From assembly GCA_946060685.1 (NCBI GenBank), contig CAMGOT010000002.1:1-52548 (forward strand): DNA of 52,548 nt. Direction: 5' to 3'. Under the pieces are notes generated by a model, which had not been told where the DNA came from, ran no database searches, and was given only the letters and a program-made list of their open reading frames with translations. Positions 20,386-41,788 of this stretch are shown in pieces. Source of the DNA: an uncultured Bacteroidales bacterium. GTDB taxonomy: Bacteria; Bacteroidota; Bacteroidia; Bacteroidales; Bacteroidaceae. The number at the start of each line of letters is the position of its first letter. The stretch's first letter is position 1. The position numbers and the translations under genes were made by a program.

Positions 20386-20417
20386 GCAAAACTACGAAAA
20401 CATGAATGGTTTTCAAT
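20386..20417 (-). promoter_or_regulatory. Promoter of the DUF5686 gene
   Basis: The minus strand reads ATTG (20414-20417), 19 bp, then TAGTTTTGC (20386-20394). One base differs from the -33 consensus and the -7 element is a full match. Predicted leader about 130 nt. Confidence 0.6.
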
Positions 20418-20576
20418 AATGCTGCTTTCATTTTCCGCTGAAAATTATTGCTTTAGACCTTTATTTGCCATTCGGAGACACGAAAAGCTGCATCAAATTA
20501 TCAGGAGCGGAACGGGAATGGAAAAGGCAGAAAAGAACACGGGAAAGCGGACTGTATCGAGGCATTGGAAAAGCAA

Positions 20577-20683
20577 GCGCCGCAGGCCACCCCCTACAGA
20601 AAGGGGAGCCTGCGGCGCAGTGTCTTATCGTCCTACCGTGCCGTCACATTGCACGACAGCAGGGAAGAACAAGTTTTCGGATT
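20577..20683 (-). ncRNA. Structured RNA candidate, copy 1, ending in a terminator-like hairpin
   Basis: On the minus strand a 58-nt block (20610-20667) beginning CTTCCCTGC and containing GACGGCACGGTAGGACGATA matches copy 2 (25179-25236) at 55 of 58 positions. It runs into a hairpin with an 11-bp perfect stem GCGCCGCAGGC/GCCTGCGGCGC and an inner AGGGG/CCCCT pairing, then TTGCTTTTC. At the third stem pair G-C replaces the A-U of copy 2, a compensatory change. The 5' end is unmapped; TAATTTTGA of the adjacent MITE end could supply a -7 element. It could be a stand-alone small RNA or a 3'UTR module of the gene ending at 20867. Confidence 0.55.
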
Positions 20684-20684
20684 T

Positions 20685-20868
20685 AAGTAGGTGTTCAAAA
20701 TTAGTTTTATGTTTGAATGCTCTATTTGGATGCAGATTTTAGTCTTGAAATAAAGGAGCATAGCGGGCTATGTGACTGTTTTCAAGGCTGAAAGATGCGC
20801 CAAAGAGAGTGTGCAAACATAAGTGGCATAATTAAATCTTAGTATAAACTAATTTTGAATACCTACTT
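20685..20868. mobile_element. MITE, 184 bp, copy A
   Basis: Terminal inverted repeats AAGTAGGTGTTCAAAATTAGTTT (left) and AAACTAATTTTGAATACCTACTT (right) are near-perfect and the element is flanked by ATTT on both sides, a likely 4-bp target duplication. The interior carries the palindrome CATAGCGGGCTATG and no coding capacity. It shares the layout, ends and palindrome with the element at 41436-41627. The right end and duplication form the TAA stop codon of the discoidin protein (20867-20869), so insertion may have trimmed or fixed its C-terminus. Confidence 0.75.
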
Positions 20869-23800
20869 ATTTCACCAGATACTTCTTGCCGTTGATGATA
20901 TAGAGACCTGCGGGGAGGTTCTTCAGGCTGTTCATGCGTACACCGGAGATGGTGTAGATGCGGTTGTCAGCCTTCTGGTCGAAGATGATATTGGTGATAC
21001 CGGTGATGGTACCCTCGGCGGGGATGAAAGCAGCACCCGTCTCGGTGGTGGCAGGAAGGTCGAGGAAGTAACCCGTGTTGGGAGCCACAACGTCGCTCTT
21101 GGAACCCTCGGAGAGGAGGAGCTTGGTGTGAGCGGCATCGAAGAGACCGGCACCCGTGGGAACCACGGTCTGCTCGAATACAGGAACAAGTCCGTTCACG
21201 GCAGCAGCAGGAGTGTGGGTGGGCACGAAGTCCTCAAGCTTCGCAGCCTCGGTGTAGAGCGTGAAGGTGGACTGTCCGGCAATCTTCTCGCCCGGAACAA
21301 ATACGTAAGCCTGTCCGGCGGTAAGTATGCCAGTCTCTTCCTTCAGCTGTACATTGTTGGAAGCATCCTGACCGATGACGCTATAGAAAGCACCACCCTC
21401 AAAGATTTCGGGATCAGCCGTTGCATTTACAGGGAAGGTCATCACCTGAGGAGCATCCTTCACCTGGAGGTTCAGCAACATACCATTGTTATAGATATCC
21501 TCCCAAGCGGCATTGATGTCCTGAGCCACAAATTCCCATGCGCTGTTGTCGCGGCCCTCGGCAGAATTCCAGGATACCACGCCACCGTTGGGCTGTGCGT
21601 TGACATAGAGATAGTTGCCGTTGTAGGCATCCTCCTCATTGATGACGAGGTTGAAGCAGCCTTCGGTATTGGCAAAGCGGAGCTTGAACACATAAGGCTC
21701 GGGAGTCTGCACGATGGCATCGGTCTCAGTAGCGGGAGCGAGATAGAGACCCGTGTAGAGGTTCTTGTAGGTGTATCCACCCTCTACCTTCTCCACGTAC
21801 CAGTAGGCACCGGGACGCTGGGTGCGGTTAGGCTCGTCGGTATAGTTGTCGCCTGCCTTCACGCGGCCGCCCTTGTCGACGCGAACCTTTGCAGAAGAAT
21901 TCATGGCGATGATGATCTGACCTTCGTTGGAGGCATTCGAGCTCTTGCTGCGAATCATATAGTAGCCGTCAGCGGGCTTGATGAGTGCATCCTGGAAGGC
22001 ATCGATGGCAGCCTGGAGAGCAGCCATTGTCTCGCGGATTTCATCGACGGACATACCGCCCTTGTAAGCAGCCTTGGCAGCATCGATAGCAGCCTGGAAG
22101 GCATCGATAGCGGTCTGGGGGAAGTAGCCCGGAGTCGTACCGGCAACGGCAGCATCGTGGGCAGCCTGTGCGGCGGTAATCAGATCCTGAAGTGCCTGAG
22201 GATTGGGGATGGCAGCCTTCAGGGCATCGATGGCAGCACGGAGAGCATCGATGGTCTCCTGGGTAGCGAGTTCGTCGGCAAGTTCCTCATTGGCCTGCTC
22301 TACGAGATCGTCGACAGCCTTGCGGAGAGCCTCGTCGGTGCAGTAGTAGGGCGACTGGGGATCCTCAACGATAGCCCAAGGCTTCTCGCCTTCATAAACG
22401 CGAAGCTCGGAGAGGTTGAAGTACATACCTGCACTGCCGAGGTCGGAGTAGGTGTGGAACACATCGAAGCGGAGGTGGCTATAACCGAGTTTGGTGGTGA
22501 ACCATCCGGCGAAGCTTTCGCTGTTCTCGTCAGTACCCTTATCGTAAGCGTTTAAGTACCAGTTCACCTCCGTAGAATCGCTGATAAGCGTCCAAGATTC
22601 GCCATCGTTGGAACCGTAAATCTTGATAGAATAAGGAATACCGTTATAATTCTTATGACGGGAAGCAAGCTTCACGGTCACGGCATCAGCCTTCTTGAGA
22701 AGGTCGAGTTGGAGGTTATGGAGCGACCATACTTCCTCTCCGGTTTCAGGGTCAATCTCCTTGGGAGAATCGCCCGTGTGCCATGAAGAGTGCCAGAGAT
22801 TCTTCACCTGACCGTCTACGAGAACACCAAGGTCCTTGCCTTCCTCAGAGTCGGAGGCGTTCGACTTAATCTGGTCAGCAGAAGTCACGAGACCATCGAC
22901 CTCGCTGAAGTCGAGCCACTGCTGTACTTCATCAGAGGTAGCGTAGGACACGGTCTTGCCGTCGAGGGCCATTTCATTATTAATATTGTCCTCCTTCAGA
23001 GTCTCAGCCTCGTCAACGAGCTTCTCCAGCTTGTTGTTGAGCTCAGGCTGGAGAGCGTTCTCCTCGATGAGCTTGAGGTCTTCCTCCGTCACGGTGCGGA
23101 TGGTCCAGCAGGAAGCCGAAGCACTCTTGGCCCATGCCACGGTGTTGGCATAGTCGCCGGCAGCATGAATACCGGAAACCTCACCATTGCATACCCAGTT
23201 GTTATCGTTGAAGAGGGTCCAGAATCCGGGATTCTCGGGGCTGGGCTCCATGGTGTAGAGGTCAATCTCCTTGTCGAGGTCAGCCTCAGCCACGGAAGGC
23301 ACCTGCTTGTTGTTGATGTCGATCACGTGGATGTAGCGGCCGGTAGCATAGTTCTTGAAGTAGTAGCGGTTCTTCACGGGCGAGTCGATCACCTGCCAAA
23401 CCATATACTTCAGACCACGCTGCTTGTACCAGTCGTCGCCCTCAAGATCGCCATTGTATACGAAGGTGTCGTTGACGTTCGTGCCGTTCTTGGAAGAGAA
23501 GCACCACTTCAGACCGTTCTTCGTGGCGTTGGCATACGTCTTGGTATCACCGTCGACATTGTCGAAGTTCTCATAGAGGGCACCACCCTGCGGATCGCGC
23601 CAGCTGGTGAAGATGTAGTAGCCGGCCTGGAAGGGCACGAAGCTGTCGAGCAGTGCCTGCCATGCCTCCAGCAGAGCATCGGCGAGAGCCTCGGCATTGC
23701 CTTCATTGGCATCCTGGGCAGCCTCGTAAGCGGCAATCAGGGCTTCCAGTGCTTCTTCGCTGTACTGTCCGGGATTGATACCGGTCTCATAGTTCTCTGC

Positions 23801-24538
23801 ATCGAAACCATTGGGGAAGAGATCCTGCATCACGGAGTCAAGATAGCTGAGTGCATCCTGCTGGTGTACGGGATGGATGAGCCAGGTGTTGGTGTTGTAG
23901 TTCGTACCGCGCGAAACATTGCCGACGGTAGCGCCGGCACCAAGACCGAGCAGATAAGTATAGGTGCTATACTGGTCGGTGGCATCATCGGCATTGGCCG
24001 ATACGATGACTACAGCACCGTCAGCATTGCAGTAGGACACGCAAGAGAGATCAAAGGCTTCGCCTGCAGCCTTTGCCTCTGCCACCATGGCAGCCACACC
24101 GGTCAGGTCTTCCTCAGCATCCTCAGGAGTATAAGTGTAGTCGGGGTCAACCCACTCCACGGTCTTCACGCAGACTTTCCATGCACGGCTGGAGGAAGTG
24201 CCATAGAAATTGTCGTTGCCCGGACCATAGAGATAGTTGCCCGCGCTGTCCTTAATGAGGTAAACGGGCGAGCCGTCAGCGGCTTTCTCGCCAGTGGCCT
24301 CAAAGGTATACAGGCTGGCAGAAGTCAAATGGCTGGAAAAATTGAAGCCATTTCCGGTCAGGAACGCATAGGATCCTGCAAGCTGTGCCTGTCCACCTTG
24401 GAACGCATACTGCACGCCAACTTCAACTTCCGATGCACTGACGGCATCGTCGGTCTCGTAATAGCGCTCGGCAGAAGCGGTCAGACTTCCTACAGCAAAC
24501 AAGGATGCTGCAGCAAGGATTTGTAGACTTTTCTTCAT
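20867..24538 (-). CDS. Large secreted protein with F5/8-type C (discoidin) and FIVAR-like domains (1223 aa)
   Basis: The start is set at the second Met of the ORF (24536-24538, MKKSLQILAAASLFAVGSL), which opens a clean signal peptide. A FIVAR-like helical module sits at about 255-310 (SEEALEALIAAYEAAQDANEG). A discoidin/F5-8C beta-jelly roll follows at about 610-715 (ASRHKNYNGIPYSIKIYGSNDGESW). A second, longer helical stretch at about 730-860 is rich in Ala and Asp (FQAAIDAAKAAYKGGMS). Two or three beta-rich regions resemble ricin-like or lectin-type modules (YYMIRSKSSN, GYYIFTSWRD). The C-terminus, YTISGVR then LPAGLYIINGKKYLVK, looks like a short T9SS sorting tail. It is probably a surface glycan-binding protein; no enzyme motif was seen. 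The stop codon comes from the MITE. Confidence 0.75.
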   Translation of the reverse strand: MKKSLQILAAASLFAVGSLTASAERYYETDDAVSASEVEVGVQYAFQGGQAQLAGSYAFLTGNGFNFSSHLTSASLYTFEATGEKAADGSPVYLIKDSAGNYLYGPGNDNFYGTSSSRAWKVCVKTVEWVDPDYTYTPEDAEEDLTGVAAMVAEAKAAGEAFDLSCVSYCNADGAVVIVSANADDATDQYSTYTYLLGLGAGATVGNVSRGTNYNTNTWLIHPVHQQDALSYLDSVMQDLFPNGFDAENYETGINPGQYSEEALEALIAAYEAAQDANEGNAEALADALLEAWQALLDSFVPFQAGYYIFTSWRDPQGGALYENFDNVDGDTKTYANATKNGLKWCFSSKNGTNVNDTFVYNGDLEGDDWYKQRGLKYMVWQVIDSPVKNRYYFKNYATGRYIHVIDINNKQVPSVAEADLDKEIDLYTMEPSPENPGFWTLFNDNNWVCNGEVSGIHAAGDYANTVAWAKSASASCWTIRTVTEEDLKLIEENALQPELNNKLEKLVDEAETLKEDNINNEMALDGKTVSYATSDEVQQWLDFSEVDGLVTSADQIKSNASDSEEGKDLGVLVDGQVKNLWHSSWHTGDSPKEIDPETGEEVWSLHNLQLDLLKKADAVTVKLASRHKNYNGIPYSIKIYGSNDGESWTLISDSTEVNWYLNAYDKGTDENSESFAGWFTTKLGYSHLRFDVFHTYSDLGSAGMYFNLSELRVYEGEKPWAIVEDPQSPYYCTDEALRKAVDDLVEQANEELADELATQETIDALRAAIDALKAAIPNPQALQDLITAAQAAHDAAVAGTTPGYFPQTAIDAFQAAIDAAKAAYKGGMSVDEIRETMAALQAAIDAFQDALIKPADGYYMIRSKSSNASNEGQIIIAMNSSAKVRVDKGGRVKAGDNYTDEPNRTQRPGAYWYVEKVEGGYTYKNLYTGLYLAPATETDAIVQTPEPYVFKLRFANTEGCFNLVINEEDAYNGNYLYVNAQPNGGVVSWNSAEGRDNSAWEFVAQDINAAWEDIYNNGMLLNLQVKDAPQVMTFPVNATADPEIFEGGAFYSVIGQDASNNVQLKEETGILTAGQAYVFVPGEKIAGQSTFTLYTEAAKLEDFVPTHTPAAAVNGLVPVFEQTVVPTGAGLFDAAHTKLLLSEGSKSDVVAPNTGYFLDLPATTETGAAFIPAEGTITGITNIIFDQKADNRIYTISGVRMNSLKNLPAGLYIINGKKYLVK

Positions 24539-24875: not shown

Positions 24876-24884
24876 GCAAATATA
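24876..24884 (-). promoter_or_regulatory. Candidate -7 element for the discoidin protein gene
   Basis: The minus strand reads TATATTTGC, fitting TAnnTTTGC. No TTTG is present at the expected -33 position. Predicted leader about 330 nt, including the three direct repeats. Confidence 0.45.
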
Positions 24885-25140
24885 CAGAAAAGAAATAACT
24901 TCGCATATTTTTCTACGAATTTTCAAAGAAAAAAAAACATTCATCCCTTAAAATCGACTTTTTAGAGCCTTGAAAATGCCACAAAAAATGAGAAGACAGC
25001 AACTGAGAGGATGCAGGAAGAAGGAAAACATCGGAAAGTCCTAATTAAAGAAAATACATGGCCGACAGGCCTGACTGCAGATTTGCCGCATGGAAGGCTT
25101 GTCAGCCTGCCCTGTGGAAACGCAGCATATAACTGGGAAG

Positions 25141-25260
25141 AAAAAAGCACCGCAGGATCCCCCTATGGAAGGGAAAGTCTGCGGTGCAGTGTCTTATCGT
25201 CCTACCGTGCCGTCACATTGCGCGACTGCAGGGAAGAGCTTTCTGTGCAGCACTTTTCAA
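25141..25260 (-). ncRNA. Structured RNA candidate, copy 2, with strong terminator
   Basis: Minus-strand block 25179-25236 is the second copy of the 58-nt sequence described at 20610-20667. It leads into the hairpin GCACCGCAG/CTGCGGTGC (25179-25187 with 25147-25155) followed by TTTTTT, a clear intrinsic terminator. Since the gene at 25453 already has its own terminator (25351-25400), this copy is more likely an independent small RNA of about 100-120 nt than a 3'UTR. A -7-like TAGTATTGA occurs near 25262 on the minus strand. The 5' end is unmapped. Confidence 0.55.
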
Positions 25261-25350
25261 TACTATATTTTTTTTGAAGGGGGGAACGCTCTTAACGATT
25301 TTACGATGGAGCAGCGAGCGGAGAGGCAGCACGTCTTGTTGCCAACACAC

Positions 25351-25400
25351 AAAAAGCCAGGAGCGGAGTCTTACTGCTAAAGGAATAGACTCCGCTCCTG
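25351..25400 (-). terminator. Terminator of the RlpA-like gene
   Basis: On the minus strand CAGGAGCGGAGTCT (25387-25400) pairs perfectly with AGACTCCGCTCCTG (25358-25371) and is followed by GCTTTTTG. It lies about 55 nt after the stop codon. Confidence 0.85.
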
Positions 25401-25452: not shown

Positions 25453-26154
25453 TTATTTATCAGCCTGCTCTGCCTTGGCCATATTCGACTGCCCCACGAC
25501 ACGGTATCTGGGTTGTGCCTTGGCAGTAAAGTTTTCCGGGTTCTTGGCGGCATTGGTCTTGGCAATCTCCTTGCGGGTAGCCTCACGCTGCTGCCATTCG
25601 GTCATGGTGTAGTAGTTTCCGGTCACAGGATCCAGCAACTGCAGTTCGGGGAGCACCAGCTCTTCCTTTCCCTTGGCGTAAGGCACTCCACCATTCAGCA
25701 TGCTGGGGTCGGCCATGGAAATCTCTACAGGGCAAACGCCATCCCGCACCATATCAATATGCTTGGCGGCTGCCATCGAAAGGTCGATGACGGCCCCCTT
25801 GCGGAAAGGCCCGCGGTCGGTAACCGTGACGTACACTTCCTTACCGTTACGCTTGTTCTTCACCTTGAGTACCGTTCCGAAAGGCAACGTGCGATGGGCA
25901 CACGTCAACGAGTCACGGTGATACACTGTTCCAGAACTCGTGCGGCGACCATGCGACCTGTTGCCATAAAAAGTGGCATTCCCGCTCTTCACCACATCTT
26001 TACCACCATCGGCAAGCATCTCTGCATTTGCCAAGGCGAACACTGCAATGAGCGTCAGAACGACTGCCTTGTAGAAGGAGCGTACGGAGCATTTCGCCGC
26101 AACGTGAAGGATGCGGTGTGCTGCTTTCTGACTTGTTGTCTTGATTTTTTGCAT
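25453..26154 (-). CDS. rlpA: RlpA-like septal ring lytic transglycosylase, double-psi beta-barrel (233 aa)
   Basis: The start chosen is the internal ATG at 26152-26154 (MQKIKTTSQK), because the 18 codons before it add nothing to a basic N-terminal region and membrane segment (AVVLTLIAVFALANAEML). Residues about 55-145 form the double-psi beta-barrel of RlpA: ATFYGNRSHGRRTSSG, SLTCAHRTLPFGTVLKV and VTDRGPFRKGAVIDLS with the catalytic-type Asp. This family cleaves peptidoglycan strands, often naked glycans at division sites. No SPOR domain follows. The last 75 residues are a charged tail. The gene stands alone, with a candidate promoter at 26432-26464 and its own terminator. Confidence 0.85.
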   Translation of the reverse strand: MQKIKTTSQKAAHRILHVAAKCSVRSFYKAVVLTLIAVFALANAEMLADGGKDVVKSGNATFYGNRSHGRRTSSGTVYHRDSLTCAHRTLPFGTVLKVKNKRNGKEVYVTVTDRGPFRKGAVIDLSMAAAKHIDMVRDGVCPVEISMADPSMLNGGVPYAKGKEELVLPELQLLDPVTGNYYTMTEWQQREATRKEIAKTNAAKNPENFTAKAQPRYRVVGQSNMAKAEQADK

Positions 26155-26630: not shown

Positions 26631-29600
26631 TCATTCCCGTCCCGACGATATGCTCACAGCCGGCGCATAGCCGGAAAACTCGGGAGCAAAGGCGCAGGAT
26701 ATATGCAGCAAGCCCGTGGAATAGCGTCCGGAACGCGCCACAAAATATTCTTCGGCAAACTCCATGGTGCCTTTCGGGAAATGCTCGAAATAGAAGTCAT
26801 TGCGGGTATCGCGCACCATGCGGTAGGCCAGATTTCCGGATGTCCATACAGTGCCGCTCAGCGGACTCACGGGTTCAAGGTTGGCAGGACGACCGGCTTC
26901 AAGGCGCACGAAATCAAAATCGCGGGCTGCCTTGACGGTAAACACTTGACGTACGCGTACACCGGGAACCAGCCATTTGGCCTGCTGGCCATCACTGTCA
27001 GGAAGGTCGGCCCATCTTCCTTCATGCCACACCTGCCAGCGACGGGCCACCGTCAGCTCTGCCCCTGCCTGCTGCACCAGGGCTGCAGGAAGCGTATAGC
27101 GTGCGCGGACGCATCCCCACGACAGGCCTTCCGACTCCTTATTAATATTATAGCCGCTTGTGCGCAAGGCTTTCGCCGTCTCGTCGGGAGTCAGCATCCT
27201 CACGCTATGGTCTTCGTTGCCAAGATGCTGGAATGCCGATGCCTGAGCGTCATAGCCCAACAGGAGGGCATAGGTGGCATCTGCCGTGGCACGCGTACTC
27301 TCCCACTGCTGCGTGCGCTTGCTCTGAAGCAGCCAAAGCCGCATCTCCTGCTGCAAGGCCGGACGATCCTGCTGCGTCATCCAGTTGTCAGCCTCCTTGC
27401 CCAAATGGGGATTTGCAAGGGCCTCCAGTGTCATCGTCTGTGTCGGGATGCGGTAACTTCCCCACCCCACCTGAGCACGCTGGGTGTCGAAATATCTTCC
27501 CATCACAGGAGAAAGCACCGTATGCTCCACCAGGCTCTGCACCGACTCGTCCGCTGCCACCAAACACTCTGCCGTCAGATGCCGCGAGAGTACACCCGTA
27601 GCAGCCGACTCTGCCAGCACCTGTGCCACCACACCCTTGCCGTACATCGTCAGGCTTTTCTTCTGCTGGCAGGCACGCTCTATCAGACGGGATGCCACGG
27701 CATCAGGCTCCAGCCCACACAACGTGCGCACATAGAGATAACGCAACAGTGTCTCTGACAGGCCATTGCCGGAAGGATGTTTGCGCATCTCCTCCCAGGC
27801 CGCAGCGGCTTCCTTCTCCATATAGTCCATAGCACGCTCCAGCACTCCGTCGGCGAAGGTGCTACCCGTCAGGTGCTTCATGCGGCCGAGCAGGATTCCC
27901 ACATCGGCAGTCACCCAGAAGGACGAGGGGAAACCTGGCATCCAGGAGAAACCGCCATCGCTGCACTGCCTGTCGCGCAACTGGTCCAAGGCAGCATAGC
28001 GCAAGGCACCGACGACCGCAGAGGAAGGCATCTCATCGCGAACTTCCTGAATCTGCTCCGACAGACAGCGCGCCACTTCTACGATGTACAGGCGTACAGC
28101 AGCATCGTTGGCACTCAAGGCTTCCATTTCCAGCAAGGCCGGCACTGTACGTACCACGCTCCATAGCGGATTGCCCGTATATTCCACACTCAGCTCCGGC
28201 TGGCACAGGGCATCATTGCGCATCAGCTGCTTCAAGCCAAGACTACTGAGGTCCACACGCTGCTGCCCTGCTTCGGTGAAGGAGAATGGTACGGCGGTCT
28301 CTACCACCACCCTTCCGCTCAACAAAGGTATGGCTCGCTGTTCACCGTCGCGGAACACCTGGCCCTCGGCATCAGGTTCTGTCTGTGCCACCACTTTCAC
28401 CGCCAGCTGTGCCAATGCCTCTGCCAGACCATCGGTGGGGTCGGTGCTGGAGGCCGGAACACCCATTGCCCGCAGATTGGCTTTCACGGTAAAGTGGAAG
28501 GTGACGGAGGCACCGGCTTCCAAGGCAAACGTCTGCCGCTCCTGGCGCAAGGGCTTTCCCCCGTCGGCATCGGAAAGCAGGAAGGCGAGCGTTCCGCACT
28601 GACGCGTCGAACTTACATTTCGAACCGTGACGGGCACATCCGCCACATCGCCGTCACGCAGGAAACGGGGAGCCGCCACTTCTGCCATAATCTCCTTGCG
28701 CGCCACAATGGTATCATGGAGGATGCCATAATTCATCTGACGGTCGTGGGCAAAGGCACTGAAGTTCCACTGTGTCAGGCTTTCCGGGAGGGTGAACGTC
28801 ATCGTCACCTCTCCCTCTGCATCTGTTCGGAGAGCAGGCATGAAAAAGGCGGTCTCACCGAAATGTTCACGAACGGGAACATCCGCCATCTCCGCACCCG
28901 CGGAAGCATCTTCCTCCGCCACTTCTTCTGCAGGAGCCGCATCCTCCATTTTGGCCGACATATTGGCGGTCATCATCAATTCATCTGCCATGGCATACTT
29001 TGAACTGCCTTTGGCCCGTACGGTCCGTTCCTGCAGCATCGATCCTGCCACAGGCATCGGACGCATCATATCCGACACCATGCCATGTGTTCCTGCAAAG
29101 GAGAACATCGAGCTTCGCCAGTGCGACAACCGCCAACTGCCCCACGAATCCACCGGTTCGTTATAGTATAGCCACAACGAAGCAGTGCGTCCCGGGCGCC
29201 ACATGGAAGGATGATGGATATAGCGCGGGAAATAAATGTCGAATGTCCACTCGCCCTTGCTGATGGCATCGAGCGAAGCATCGTACAGGCGTGCCATGAC
29301 CAGAGCATCGGCAGGCGCACCGTCGGGTTTGCGTACCGTCAGCGACCAGGTCTCTTCCTGACCGGGCTGTAGCTTGTTGCGGAAGGTGCTCCAGGAGAGC
29401 AAAAGGCGCTTGTCGGGACGCGGACGCTCCACCCGACAACTGATGCTGTGGAACGTGCCATCCTGCATCCATCCCAGATAAGCCACGGCAGCATCGCCAT
29501 AAGCGGGCTGCCAGTCGAGCGTGCGTACAAGGCTGTCGGTCACCTGTACGGTCTGCTCAGCCACATGCTCCCCTTGGGCGGTCACCACATCATAATATGC

Positions 29601-31829
29601 CCATGCTCCGGGAAGTGTCAGCACCATACGTGCCTTTGAGCAGTCGTCGGATGTCGCTATCCGCCACGGCTCCTTCCTTTCTGCCTCCTTCTTCTGCCAT
29701 TCTTCCGGAACAGGCTGGCGTGCCACTACCGTAGCTGTCGCCGTGACACTTTCTCCATTCGGAGCCGTCACGTCACACTGTGTCGTGAAACGATAGAAGA
29801 GCCAAGGAGCAGCTATGCTCTTTTCGACGTCTTCATCGGAAATTCCGCGCAGGCGGACAACGATTTCAAACGTTCCGTCAGGACCACTTGTGGTTTCACC
29901 CGTCACCTTGGCATCCTCAGTTCCTGCCATTCGCCAGAAACTGACGCTACGCTCCGTCGACCAGCACACCTTTGCTTCTGCCACGGATATGCCGGAATAG
30001 GTTTTCACCGTACCGCGAAGAGTCAGGCTGTCGCCCAGTTCCCACGCATCGCGCCCATAGCATGCTTGGGGGGTGGGAACATCCATCTCCACCATAAACG
30101 TCGGGCGCTTGTATTCCTCCACACGTAAGCTGACACTTCGGGAAAGTCCGTTGCCGGTAAGTCGCAGTTGGTAAAGCCCTGGCATCAAAGGTTCCGGGAG
30201 CACGAAACTACCGTTGAAATCGCCCATATCGCTCGTACAAACGGTGGTATCGGAAAGTGTCTTTCGCTGAGGGTCGAGGAGCACTACTTTTCCATTCCAT
30301 CCCTGAACGGACTGGACATCATCCTGCTGCTGCTGATAGACAACGCCTCCGAAATGCACCGTCTGACCAGGACGGTACACAGCACGATCCGTAAACATGC
30401 GGCCGGACGTGACTTTCTGCTGCACGGGATGGAAACCCTGGCCGACGGTGGCATAGAAGGGTGGAAGAAACACATCGTCGCCCACTTGTGCCGACACCAG
30501 CAACTGTTCGTCCGCATCGTCCAACCAGCAGATACCGCCGACGATACCCGCTGCGGCATTCCAATGGACAGCCTGCCGTTCTTCTGCCCGTCGGCCCCAT
30601 CCGTAATGCTGGATTTTTGCAGACTGCACAGCCACACCGGCACGGAAAGGCTCTCCATCCCGGGCATCCACAAGCATCAGCCGCAAACGATAGTCCCCGC
30701 CTTCATCATAACTAAATAGTACGGGACAAATGCGTGTACAGGGAACCACGGTGAAATCGCGTATTTTTCCATTCTCGCGCAATTCCACCCTATAGAGTCC
30801 GGGAGCATCGAACTGTATCTGAAGCGTATCAGTATGACCGACGTGGGCGGGCGCATCGTGGGCAGGCACACGGTGGGTGCTGCACAGCGTCAAGCCTGCA
30901 CGCTTGCACAACCGTGTCAGGTCGGCATCATCCATGGCATCGGGCATCAGGTCGCTTCCGGCTGCTTTCTTCAAGCGGTAAATCCGCAATTCCGCATGGG
31001 AGACATTGCGGGTGTCTACACTGACAGCATAGGACTTTCCGGGATAGAACAGCGATTCCGAGGCCTCGAAGGAGGCACGGATATAGCCGCTCTCCTCACC
31101 TGCGATGTAAGCCGACAGCACTTTCTGTGCATGACTTCCCTTAAAACGAGGCAGCATACTGCGTATTTTTGCGATAAAACCGCCTTTTTCATCATCCAAA
31201 AGCTGCTTCTGCACCATTTCATCGTACTCCATCATCAGCAAGGCTTCCTCATACCCTTTCTGTTCATACACCCTCCGCATCCGGCTACGGGCATCCTGGG
31301 CCTGGGCCTTGCTGATACCCCTGTACCCTTCACGGTCAAGCACCACGCGCGTGAGGAGTGCGAGCAGGTCATCATGAGTCCATCGGCTGTCTTCCCCCAT
31401 TTCGAACAATGTGGCATAGTCAGCCGTACGGGCATCGGCCAGCACCTCCGGCTGGGCGATGGAGGCCAGCAGACTGTCAGCGTTGCCCGTCAGCTGTCCG
31501 TAGGCCGAAAGCCAAAGGGCACGCTCCACAGGCCGATGTTCTTGGGCCATCGCACGCTCTATCTGCTGCAGAACGACATTGCCACTATCAGGAGAAATCT
31601 CACGTGCTACGGCACATTCCGTGACCAATGCCCGCAGCAACTGGGCATCGGCCCTCTCGTGGGCAGCTTTCTTCCTGATTTCGAAAAGCACATCGCGGGC
31701 AGAGGCTGGCAAATCCTTCTGATAGGCTGCGTCGAACTGTGCCCAAAGCGCATCAAACGTCTGTGCCTTTGCTGCGAAAGGCAACAGGGAAAGCAGGGCT
31801 CCAAGGAGCATCAATAATTGTCTTCGCAT
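26631..31829 (-). CDS. Alpha-2-macroglobulin family protein without thioester motif (about 1732 aa)
   Basis: The track ORF opens at 31979, upstream of the predicted transcription start, so a later Met is needed. MRRQLLMLLGALLSLLPFAAKAQ (ATG at 31827-31829) is a good signal peptide; Met at 31847 is the alternative. The order fits bacterial A2M: N-terminal helical region, MG2-like strand TDRAVYRPGQTVHFGG near 480, bait/MG region, the A2M core FFMPALRTDAEGEVTMTFTLPESLTQWNF near 995, the TED-like alpha barrel (about 1240-1560) and a receptor-binding-like end. No C-x-E-Q thioester was found in the TED. It probably traps or inhibits proteases, or supports envelope integrity, non-covalently. Short TM or lipobox is absent. 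Terminated by a strong hairpin. Confidence 0.85.
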   Translation of the reverse strand: MRRQLLMLLGALLSLLPFAAKAQTFDALWAQFDAAYQKDLPASARDVLFEIRKKAAHERADAQLLRALVTECAVAREISPDSGNVVLQQIERAMAQEHRPVERALWLSAYGQLTGNADSLLASIAQPEVLADARTADYATLFEMGEDSRWTHDDLLALLTRVVLDREGYRGISKAQAQDARSRMRRVYEQKGYEEALLMMEYDEMVQKQLLDDEKGGFIAKIRSMLPRFKGSHAQKVLSAYIAGEESGYIRASFEASESLFYPGKSYAVSVDTRNVSHAELRIYRLKKAAGSDLMPDAMDDADLTRLCKRAGLTLCSTHRVPAHDAPAHVGHTDTLQIQFDAPGLYRVELRENGKIRDFTVVPCTRICPVLFSYDEGGDYRLRLMLVDARDGEPFRAGVAVQSAKIQHYGWGRRAEERQAVHWNAAAGIVGGICWLDDADEQLLVSAQVGDDVFLPPFYATVGQGFHPVQQKVTSGRMFTDRAVYRPGQTVHFGGVVYQQQQDDVQSVQGWNGKVVLLDPQRKTLSDTTVCTSDMGDFNGSFVLPEPLMPGLYQLRLTGNGLSRSVSLRVEEYKRPTFMVEMDVPTPQACYGRDAWELGDSLTLRGTVKTYSGISVAEAKVCWSTERSVSFWRMAGTEDAKVTGETTSGPDGTFEIVVRLRGISDEDVEKSIAAPWLFYRFTTQCDVTAPNGESVTATATVVARQPVPEEWQKKEAERKEPWRIATSDDCSKARMVLTLPGAWAYYDVVTAQGEHVAEQTVQVTDSLVRTLDWQPAYGDAAVAYLGWMQDGTFHSISCRVERPRPDKRLLLSWSTFRNKLQPGQEETWSLTVRKPDGAPADALVMARLYDASLDAISKGEWTFDIYFPRYIHHPSMWRPGRTASLWLYYNEPVDSWGSWRLSHWRSSMFSFAGTHGMVSDMMRPMPVAGSMLQERTVRAKGSSKYAMADELMMTANMSAKMEDAAPAEEVAEEDASAGAEMADVPVREHFGETAFFMPALRTDAEGEVTMTFTLPESLTQWNFSAFAHDRQMNYGILHDTIVARKEIMAEVAAPRFLRDGDVADVPVTVRNVSSTRQCGTLAFLLSDADGGKPLRQERQTFALEAGASVTFHFTVKANLRAMGVPASSTDPTDGLAEALAQLAVKVVAQTEPDAEGQVFRDGEQRAIPLLSGRVVVETAVPFSFTEAGQQRVDLSSLGLKQLMRNDALCQPELSVEYTGNPLWSVVRTVPALLEMEALSANDAAVRLYIVEVARCLSEQIQEVRDEMPSSAVVGALRYAALDQLRDRQCSDGGFSWMPGFPSSFWVTADVGILLGRMKHLTGSTFADGVLERAMDYMEKEAAAAWEEMRKHPSGNGLSETLLRYLYVRTLCGLEPDAVASRLIERACQQKKSLTMYGKGVVAQVLAESAATGVLSRHLTAECLVAADESVQSLVEHTVLSPVMGRYFDTQRAQVGWGSYRIPTQTMTLEALANPHLGKEADNWMTQQDRPALQQEMRLWLLQSKRTQQWESTRATADATYALLLGYDAQASAFQHLGNEDHSVRMLTPDETAKALRTSGYNINKESEGLSWGCVRARYTLPAALVQQAGAELTVARRWQVWHEGRWADLPDSDGQQAKWLVPGVRVRQVFTVKAARDFDFVRLEAGRPANLEPVSPLSGTVWTSGNLAYRMVRDTRNDFYFEHFPKGTMEFAEEYFVARSGRYSTGLLHISCAFAPEFSGYAPAVSISSGRE

Positions 31830-31960
31830 CTTTTCGGTTATAATCATATCGTTAATACTCATATCGTTAATCCTCATATCGCTTGTCATTAGTGAAGTGG
31901 ACGGACAGTGAAGTGGATGGACAGTGAAGGATGTCTGCCCATAATGAATATCTTTAGAAT

Positions 31961-31990
31961 GCAAAAATAAACAATTCATTGCAAAGCAAA
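31961..31990 (-). promoter_or_regulatory. Promoter of the alpha-2-macroglobulin-like gene
   Basis: The minus strand reads TTTG (31987-31990), 17 bp, then TATTTTTGC (31961-31969). Transcription would begin near 31954, which excludes the ORF-track start at 31979. Two 15-bp direct repeats (CATATCGTTAAT units, 31847-31882) follow in the leader. Confidence 0.6.
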
Positions 31991-32402: not shown

Positions 32403-32474
32403 TATGAGACAAGATTAAGCTAATCGAGGAAGTATATTTGCAGCTCTGCCGATGTATGTTAACTTCATTGCCGA

Positions 32475-32542
32475 CAAGGTTAATAACCTTGCAGCCGTAA
32501 GGTTATTAATCTTAAGCCTGTAAGGTTATTAACCTTACAGGC
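32475..32542. repeat. Cluster of palindromes built on AAGGTTA/TAACCTT
   Basis: CAAGGTTAATAACCTTG (32475-32491), a degenerate GTAAGGTTATTAATCTTA in the middle, and GCCTGTAAGGTTATTAACCTTACAGGC (32516-32542, 13-bp arms, one central base) occur within 70 bp. They resemble stacked binding sites or a small REP cluster. Confidence 0.85.
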
Positions 32543-32569
32543 AATAAAGTTATAGTCCTTGACTTCCTT

Positions 32570-36752: not shown

Positions 36753-39512
36753 TTAGAAGAGCACTTTTTTGCCGTTTACGATGTAGAGTCCCTGAGTAGC
36801 ACGACTCACGCGACGTCCTGCGAGGTCGAAGATCGGAGTCTGGCTGGACTGGCCGAGAACATTGTTGATGCCAACGGGCTTCGTTTGGCCGTTGAGGGAG
36901 TAGATATAGTTGCCCTTGTTCAGCTCGTGCGTGCCGTTGAAGTCGCAAAGTTCACCGTATACCACCACTTCATCGCCAAGTTTCAGATAGTCCTCGACAG
37001 TGATATCCTCGCCGTTGATACCATAACCCTGGTAGACCTCCAGCTGGTTTTCCTCAGTGCCATCATCGCTGATGAAATAGATGGCGTTGGTATATTTTCC
37101 TGCGATGGACTGAATCTTGCTGACCTTACCCACGACGAATACCTTCTTGCTGAGGTCGCTGAGGGGATCGACAATCAGTTCATGAGCCTGTGCCACGGTG
37201 TAAGCCGTCTCGGGGGTGTTGCTGATGTCCTTCAGTTCAACTTCGCTGCCCACGAGTTCAACGTCGGTGACGATGACATTCACGTACTTGCCGCTGCTGG
37301 CATACATGGCAAAGCCCGTGATATCATAGGTGCTGCCATTGGAGAGGAGGGCCTTCAGTTCGTCGGCGGGATAGACGATGGAGCCGATGGCGGTTTCGGC
37401 ACCTTCCACCGTGACGTTGTAATAGTTGCCGGAGATATTGAGCGTTCCGCGGAACTTGATGAAGTCGATTTCAGGACTTGCCACCCAATCGTCGAGATCA
37501 GCACCCGTCATGACGGTAGGTGAGGGGTAGTTGACAGTCTCCTCGCCCAGTTTGGTCAGCGTAGCACTGCTGAACTGGTTGAAGCCTGCATAGGTGGAGA
37601 GTGCGCCCTCTACCTTCACCTTGTCGCCCACGGCGGCAGAGCCCTCGGTGTATGCCAGGGTCTTGAAGCAATAGATATAGCCGGTGGCATCTCCCAATAC
37701 GATGCTGGAACTGTTGGCGGCCACTACGGTGCCTTCCACCACGGCCTCTGTTCCGGCCTCGGCAGCCAGAGCCTCTGCTACGGTCATGGTCTTGATGTCG
37801 CCAGGCTCGTCGCCGCCTGCAGCTTCCACATTGGTGACAATGACATTCACATACTTCCCGCTGCTGACATACATGGCAAAGCCCGTGATATCATAGGTGC
37901 TGCCATTCGTCAGCTGAGCCTTCAGTTCGTCGGCGGGATAGACGATGGAGCCGATAGCGGTCTCGGCACCTTCCACCGTGACGTTGTAATAGTTGCCGGA
38001 GACGTTGAGCGTTCCGCGGAACTTGATAAAGTCGATCTTGGGACTTGCCACCCATGCGTCGAGATCAGCACCTGCCATGACGGTTGGTGTGGGGTATGCG
38101 ACAGTCTCCTCGCCCAGTTTGGTCAGCGTAGCACTGCTGAACTGGTTGAAGCCTGCATAGGTGGAGAGTGCGCCCTCTACCTTCACCTTGTCGCCCACGG
38201 CGGCAGAGCCCTCGGTGTATGCCAGGGTCTTGAAGCAATAGATATAGCCGGTGGCATCTCCCAATACGATGCTGGAACTGTTGGTGGCCACTACGGTGCC
38301 TTCCACCACGGCCTCTGTTCCAGCCTCGGCAGCCAAAGCCTCTGCTACGGTCATGGTCTTGCTGTCGCCAGGCTCATCGCCACCACCAGGCTCGTCGCCG
38401 CCTGCAGCCTCCACGTTGGTGACAATGACATTCACGTACTTCCCGCTGCTGGCATACATGGCAAAGCCCGTGATATCATAGGTGCTGCCATTCGTCAGCT
38501 GAGCCTTCAGTTCGTCGGCGGGATAGACGATGGAGCCGATAGCGGTCTCGGCACCTTCCACCGTGACGTTGTAATAGTTGCCGGAGACGTTGAGCGTTCC
38601 GCGGAACTTGATAAAGTCGATCTTGGGACTTGCCACCCATGCGTCGAGATCAGCACCTGCCATGACGGTTGGTGTGGGGTATGCGACAGTCTCCTCGCCC
38701 AGTTTGGTCAGCGTAGCACTGCTGAACTGGTTGAAGCCTGCATAGGTGGAGAGTGCGCCCTCTACCTTCACCTTGTCGCCCACGGCGGCAGAGCCCTCGG
38801 TGTATGCCAGGGTCTTGAAGCAATAGATATAGCCGGTGGCATCTCCCAATACGATGCTGGAACTGTTGGTGGCCACTACGGTGCCTTCCACCACGGCCTC
38901 TGTTCCAGCCTCGGCAGCGAGTGCCTCTGCTACGGTCATGGTCTTGATGTCGCCAGGTTCGTCGCCGCCACCAGGCTCTTCTCCACTCTGCGTCTTGACT
39001 AACGAGGCATCATCGATGATGGCGTTGGCCTTTGCTTTTTTTGATACCATGACAAGGATGGCAAGGCGTCCCTGCTGCTCAAGGGTGAAGGAGTACTCCA
39101 CCTTTGTCCATTCATTGCCGACGCTGCATTCGGTACCATAAATGTAAGAATTGGAGTCAGCCTTGTCGTTCTCGTCGACAGGCACGTAGCCCGGCCTTAC
39201 GTTTGTGGCCGCCTCTGCGTCGGCACTCTTTACATAGAAAGTGAAGAGGTAGGTTCCGGCCTCCAAGGTGAGTTCCTTATACGCCATGCGCTTGTTGCTG
39301 CTGGCTTTCGCAGCCTCCACGGCGTATTGTCCGTCATGGGCATCGGTGCTTTGTGTGAGAGTAGCACTGGATGCCGAAGAGGCAGACTTCCAGTTGACGG
39401 GCAGACCATCATCGGTCCAACTCTCGAAATCGCCGTTCTCCAGCAGGTTGCTCTGGGCACTCATGGAAAGAGCGGAGAGCACTGTGGCAAGAAAGAGTAG
39501 AAATTTCTTCAT
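36753..39512 (-). CDS. Secreted protein with CBM-like N-domain and tandem OB-fold-like repeats (919 aa)
   Basis: Signal peptide MKKFLLFLATVLSALSMSAQ. Residues 21-175 resemble a carbohydrate-binding jelly roll (NLLENGDFESWTDDG... LVKTQSG). Then three repeats of about 185 residues, starting KTMTVAEALAAEAGTEAVVEGTV near 190, 385 and 574. They are nearly identical and joined by EPGGGDEP-like linkers. A further OB-fold-like domain follows at about 760-885 (TVAQAHELIVDPLSDL, KVFVVGKVSKIQSIAG; DUF6359-like). The C-terminus IFDLAGRRVSRATQGLYIVNGKKVLF is a short T9SS-type sorting tail. The repeats share the pattern of bacterial OB-fold domains of secreted nucleases, but no nuclease motif is present. 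The protein is probably exported to the surface and binds a polymer. Confidence 0.8.
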   Translation of the reverse strand: MKKFLLFLATVLSALSMSAQSNLLENGDFESWTDDGLPVNWKSASSASSATLTQSTDAHDGQYAVEAAKASSNKRMAYKELTLEAGTYLFTFYVKSADAEAATNVRPGYVPVDENDKADSNSYIYGTECSVGNEWTKVEYSFTLEQQGRLAILVMVSKKAKANAIIDDASLVKTQSGEEPGGGDEPGDIKTMTVAEALAAEAGTEAVVEGTVVATNSSSIVLGDATGYIYCFKTLAYTEGSAAVGDKVKVEGALSTYAGFNQFSSATLTKLGEETVAYPTPTVMAGADLDAWVASPKIDFIKFRGTLNVSGNYYNVTVEGAETAIGSIVYPADELKAQLTNGSTYDITGFAMYASSGKYVNVIVTNVEAAGGDEPGGGDEPGDSKTMTVAEALAAEAGTEAVVEGTVVATNSSSIVLGDATGYIYCFKTLAYTEGSAAVGDKVKVEGALSTYAGFNQFSSATLTKLGEETVAYPTPTVMAGADLDAWVASPKIDFIKFRGTLNVSGNYYNVTVEGAETAIGSIVYPADELKAQLTNGSTYDITGFAMYVSSGKYVNVIVTNVEAAGGDEPGDIKTMTVAEALAAEAGTEAVVEGTVVAANSSSIVLGDATGYIYCFKTLAYTEGSAAVGDKVKVEGALSTYAGFNQFSSATLTKLGEETVNYPSPTVMTGADLDDWVASPEIDFIKFRGTLNISGNYYNVTVEGAETAIGSIVYPADELKALLSNGSTYDITGFAMYASSGKYVNVIVTDVELVGSEVELKDISNTPETAYTVAQAHELIVDPLSDLSKKVFVVGKVSKIQSIAGKYTNAIYFISDDGTEENQLEVYQGYGINGEDITVEDYLKLGDEVVVYGELCDFNGTHELNKGNYIYSLNGQTKPVGINNVLGQSSQTPIFDLAGRRVSRATQGLYIVNGKKVLF
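37240..38950 (-). repeat. Three tandem in-gene repeats
   Basis: The unit marker GCCTCTGCTACGGTCATGG begins at 37771, 38338 and 38923, spacing 567 and 585 bp; the 18-bp difference is an extra linker (six codons, PGGGDE). Units 1 and 2 are nearly identical at DNA level, while unit 3 (promoter-distal) has more changes (VAANSSS, NYPSPTVMTG). This indicates recent duplication or gene conversion and possible copy-number variation. Confidence 0.88.
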
Positions 39513-41358: not shown

Positions 41359-41435
41359 AGATTTGTGTGTTTTGGGGGATTGTTAGTGATTGTTTGTTGT
41401 ATTATTGTGTGTTTTTTTATGCGGGGATAATATTT

Positions 41436-41627
41436 AAGGGATGTTCTATAAATTAGTTTTTTATTCATTTAGAAAGTTTTATTATGCTTGGCCACTTTTC
41501 AGCCTCTCGCTTGTATCTTCCTATCCTTCAAACACTTACATAGCCCGCTATGTGCGCGTTTAAAGGATAGGAATCTACTGTGCGATAGTTCGAAAATTGT
41601 CTCAAGCTAATTTATAGAACATCCCTT
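41436..41627. mobile_element. MITE, 192 bp, copy B
   Basis: Terminal inverted repeats AAGGGATGTTCTATAAATTAGTTT (left) and AAGCTAATTTATAGAACATCCCTT (right), 22 of 24 complementary. The interior has the palindrome CATAGCCCGCTATG, the same motif in reverse orientation as copy A, and no coding capacity. Flanking it are ATGCGGGGATAATAT on the left and ATGCGGAGATGATAT on the right, a 15-bp near-direct repeat. No short target duplication as clear as that of copy A is seen. Confidence 0.75.
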
Positions 41628-41788
41628 AATGCGGAGATGATATGCCGGAGGGCTCCACGAAAAAAGAGCGTAGGGGGAACAGTGGCATATGCGCCCCCCC
41701 TTTTTATTGCAAATGGCAAGGTACTTTTTTTTGAGAGGGTTAATTCCTGCGGAGATTTCCCGTCAGGAAATGAAAACCGGGAGTATTC

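Follow-up and report, generated by a model that had tools for sequence, protein, structure and literature searches.

The window analysed here, a stretch of 52,548 nucleotides from an uncultured Bacteroidales bacterium, carries on its minus strand an element of about 95 nt that is present twice, at 20668-20570 (copy 1) and at 25237-25140 (copy 2), about 4.6 kb apart. The question that this locus raises is whether the pair represents a small RNA family, the remains of a mobile element or something more ordinary. The preliminary description had counted by hand 55 identical positions between 20610-20667 and 25179-25236, and alignment confirms this: 55 of 58 positions are identical, the 3 differences lie in alignment columns 14, 19 and 56, and the wider element matches at 86% over about 91 nt with an E value of 1.3e-23 in the own genome, which is far above chance. 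The minus-strand sense given to the element also holds, because on that strand each copy has a G+C-rich stem at its end and then a T-rich tail. Equally correct was the account of a terminator stem with a compensatory change at its third pair (G-C in copy 1, A-U in copy 2) and with a diverged loop; the inner stem has diverged as well. There is no sign of coding, as had been said, and the peptide CGAVSYRPTVPSHC that the stretch would give was set aside: relatives do not have this sequence, and a terminator region on the opposite strand accounts for the stretch.

When the two copies were folded, the 5' part, which had been called unstructured-looking, formed a hairpin in both at minimum free energy. 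All parts lie on the minus strand. In copy 1 the predicted hairpin (UUCUUCC.UGC.GUCGU...), assigned here to a 3'UTR, occupies 20631-20668 and is followed by a predicted single-stranded linker of 12 nt, CGATAAGACACT, at 20619-20630, by the stem-loop of a putative intrinsic terminator, GCGCCGCAGGC...GCCTGCGGCGC, at 20577-20618, which was assigned from the fold and from synteny in relatives, and by the T-rich tail TTGCTTT at 20570-20576. In copy 2 the duplicate hairpin is predicted at 25200-25237, the same 12-nt linker CGATAAGACACT at 25188-25199, and the terminator stem-loop GCACCGCAG...CTGCGGTGC, with the third pair A-U in what is probably the derived state, at 25147-25187, before the T tail TTTTTTC at 25140-25146. 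The 5' hairpin alone was only modestly more stable than shuffled sequences (z of -2.0 in copy 1 and -0.6 in copy 2), whereas the GC-rich hairpin reached -38.0 and -27.8 kcal/mol in copies 1 and 2, with z of -5.9 and -6.6, as is expected of an intrinsic terminator. The strong signal in these predictions is that of the terminator stem and not that of the 5' hairpin. As in an intrinsic (Rho-independent) terminator, the GC-rich stem runs straight into a T-rich tail, it stands where a gene ends, and a compensatory change has preserved it. Unlike the usual form, the stem is long and contains an inner second stem, the T tract after it is an unbroken TTTTTT in copy 2 but is interrupted (TTGCTTTT) in copy 1, and there is one extra copy, copy 2, that has no gene of its own.

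The order on the minus strand is an rlpA-like gene, its own terminator, copy 2, a promoter, a surface-protein gene, a MITE, copy 1, a second promoter and a DUF5686 gene. The rlpA-like gene has a DPBB domain and its stop at 25453, and its separate terminator, CAGGAGCGGAGTC...GACTCCGCTCCTG and then CTTTTT, was read from the sequence at 25349-25400, upstream of copy 2. Downstream of copy 2 lies the putative sigma-ABfr-like promoter of the large surface-type protein gene (20867-24538), with its -7 box TATATTTG at 24877-24884. This gene, to which we assign copy 1 as the 3'UTR, encodes an F5/8 type C-like domain that scores just under the Pfam cut-off, and by eye the C-terminus of its product is like a type IX sorting tail. 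The second putative promoter, TAGTTTTG, is at 20394, between copy 1 and the DUF5686 gene (20246-17544). With the consensus TTTG/TAnnTTTG (PMC7366714), no promoter was found upstream of copy 2, whereas both neighbouring genes have one, and upstream of copy 1 there was only a weak match, inside the MITE. Two other repeats were seen in the window: three direct repeats of 300 nt (37234-38685; 85-99% alike, with spacings of 567 and 585) within the minus-strand ORF 36753-39512, and a 46-nt inverted repeat with a 1-nt spacer (32460-32552) in the gap that precedes the alpha-2-macroglobulin-like gene at 26631-31979.

The gene order around the surface-protein gene is kept in three relatives, G045, G048 and G008, and partly in G034. 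After the orthologous gene in the first three there is again a hairpin, a short linker and a terminator, GCCGCAGG...CCTGCGG, the hairpins giving z of -2.3, -3.9 and -1.3, respectively, against shuffles. A covariance model made from both copies in the window matched G045 with 32.6 bits (E 9.7e-6), G048 with 26.0 bits (E 3.9e-4) and G008 with 19.8 bits (E 0.013). These matches lie exactly in the gap 3' of the orthologous gene; for G045 the whole genome was scanned, and this terminator was the sole match at E up to 10. The covariance-model search that had been proposed did find relatives of the element, in the form of syntenic terminators. Because a related terminator stands at the same place in syntenic relatives and is matched by the model, copy 1 is read as the 3'UTR and intrinsic terminator of gene 20867-24538, and not as an independent small RNA carrying a conserved seed, as had been proposed. 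Copy 1 has a same-strand gene upstream of it, an arrangement kept for the orthologues in G045, G048 and G008, whereas copy 2 has no gene of its own; copy 2 is absent from these relatives, no model match lying between rlpA and the surface-protein gene in G045, G048 or G008. We have good confidence in the assignment of copy 1 to this gene, as 3'UTR and terminator, and in the reading of copy 2 as a local duplicate specific to this lineage.

The direction of the duplication can be read from the differences between the copies. Only copy 2 has A-U as its third stem pair; copy 1 and the three relatives all have G-C there. They also agree in the second G of CAGG, where copy 2 alone has A; pair counts on the five sequences (43/500 shuffles) are not significant on their own. 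A further indication comes from the MITE, a mobile element of 187 bp separate from copy 1 (20684-20870; ends TAAGTAGGT/ACCTACTTA, with TA at both ends). It is a young insertion that entered gene 20867-24538 at its stop codon and now separates copy 1 from that codon. When the flanks are joined and one TA is removed, the empty site GTGAAATAAATCCG parallels GTGAAGTAAATCCCG after the G048 gene, and what directly follows the stop codon is therefore taken as orthologous sequence. From the third pair, the CAGG state and this empty site we infer that copy 1 is ancestral and in place and that copy 2 is probably derived from it. Beyond the element, the likeness of the flanks was no better than that of shuffles (the joined flank in this test was without one A). 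Elsewhere in the own genome the MITE occurs as three nearly identical full copies and two diverged copies, besides many partial ones, several of which lie at contig ends; G045 has one copy at 85%. A second MITE-like element, at 41434-41629, has 26-bp inverted ends TTAAGGGATGTTCTATAAATTAGTTT; it has the inner CATAGC(GG)GCTATG motif in common with the 187-bp MITE, and its end sequence also adjoins two copies of that MITE elsewhere.

A palindromic element near a MITE could belong to a transposable element, as its end or its body, or be a REP-like repeat, and the preliminary description had named genome-wide matches as the sign of this. We regard this as very improbable, as there are only two copies in 2.44 Mb and not many, the MITE stops short of the element, at 20684, and none lies beside copy 2. 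No third copy turned up in the own genome (2.44 Mb), in 57 congeners or in plasmids, phages and viral contigs. Searches of genome contigs and viral contigs with exact and degenerate patterns of the core gave nothing, and distant blastn gave one short chance-level match each in plasmids and in phages. A model scan of a family sample of 301 genomes returned only the two copies, a negative that is incomplete because its strict filters missed the G045 match. In the own genome the model also matched at C193 (23.2 bits, E 0.02), but there the neighbouring gene is another one, a transporter-like ORF, and the match, which was rejected, is at most a similar terminator. The suggested Rfam scan for 6S and known Bacteroidota RNAs, at the gathering score, gave no match in the window except a tRNA.

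An alternative is a 3'UTR-derived small RNA. Copy 1 would then be such an RNA and copy 2 its stand-alone sibling, with the exposed linker CGAUAAGACACU as seed. The linker is identical in both copies and the 5' part is less diverged than the terminator, with differences at 2/50 positions in the hairpin and linker and at 11/42 in the terminator stem-loop (Fisher p 0.005, post hoc). RNAs of this kind have been described in Bacteroides thetaiotaomicron (PMC7366714, PMC10994844), and, as in the element, they follow a stop codon, share the terminator and have a hairpin upstream. Unlike them, the element has no sequence conservation in relatives. The sequence of the 5' part was not found in 57 congeners and could not be aligned in the syntenic gaps of the relatives; across species the terminator core is conserved but the hairpin sequence is not. 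The likeness of the 5' parts, which had been taken as functional, is explained by a recent local duplication, and their lower divergence is compatible with such a duplication if the loop and inner stem have changed faster since; there is a slight chance that selection acts on the hairpin and linker. Considering also that no promoter was found before copy 2, that copy 1 has only the weak match in the MITE and that the 5' hairpin of copy 2 hardly exceeds shuffles, we think this reading unlikely. To the more elaborate version, in which a duplicated structured 3'UTR was freed as an independent small RNA, so that one sibling is tied to an mRNA and the other is not, they share the exposed 12-nt linker and selection keeps the hairpin and linker, we give an even slighter chance.

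A variant of the duplication reading, differing only as to origin, is that the surface-protein gene once had a tandem paralogue, since lost, whose terminator survives as copy 2. Tandem paralogues occur in several congeners, as neighbours in G033 and G039, and a terminator upstream of the gene would be accounted for. However, a right-anchored alignment detected no coding remnant on the upstream side of copy 2 (p 0.38), and we consider this origin rather doubtful. In G034 (L092:3724-3834) a perfect 37-nt direct repeat in the corresponding gap, 74 nt apart, covers the last codons and stop of the orthologous gene, and therefore duplications of this gene's end happened elsewhere too.

In the explanation that we prefer, copy 1 would be a structured 3'UTR with an intrinsic terminator where the surface-protein mRNA should end, its hairpin, 12-nt linker, GC-rich stem and T-rich tail serving to stop RNA polymerase and to protect the 3' end of the mRNA. 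About 95 bp of this region would have been duplicated into the space between the rlpA terminator and the promoter of the surface-protein gene, where copy 2 would most likely act as a second, back-up terminator (an insulator) or be neutral. Both copies are predicted to terminate transcription, and a separate small-RNA role is probably absent; nothing that was found requires a new regulatory RNA. Beyond this locus the finding has little consequence. It does show that, to a reader of only a single genome, a duplicated terminator can pass for a family of covarying small RNAs, and that comparison with syntenic loci of relatives decides the question. Should the element prove to be transcribed as an RNA of its own, it would illustrate clearly how a small RNA can arise from a 3'UTR.
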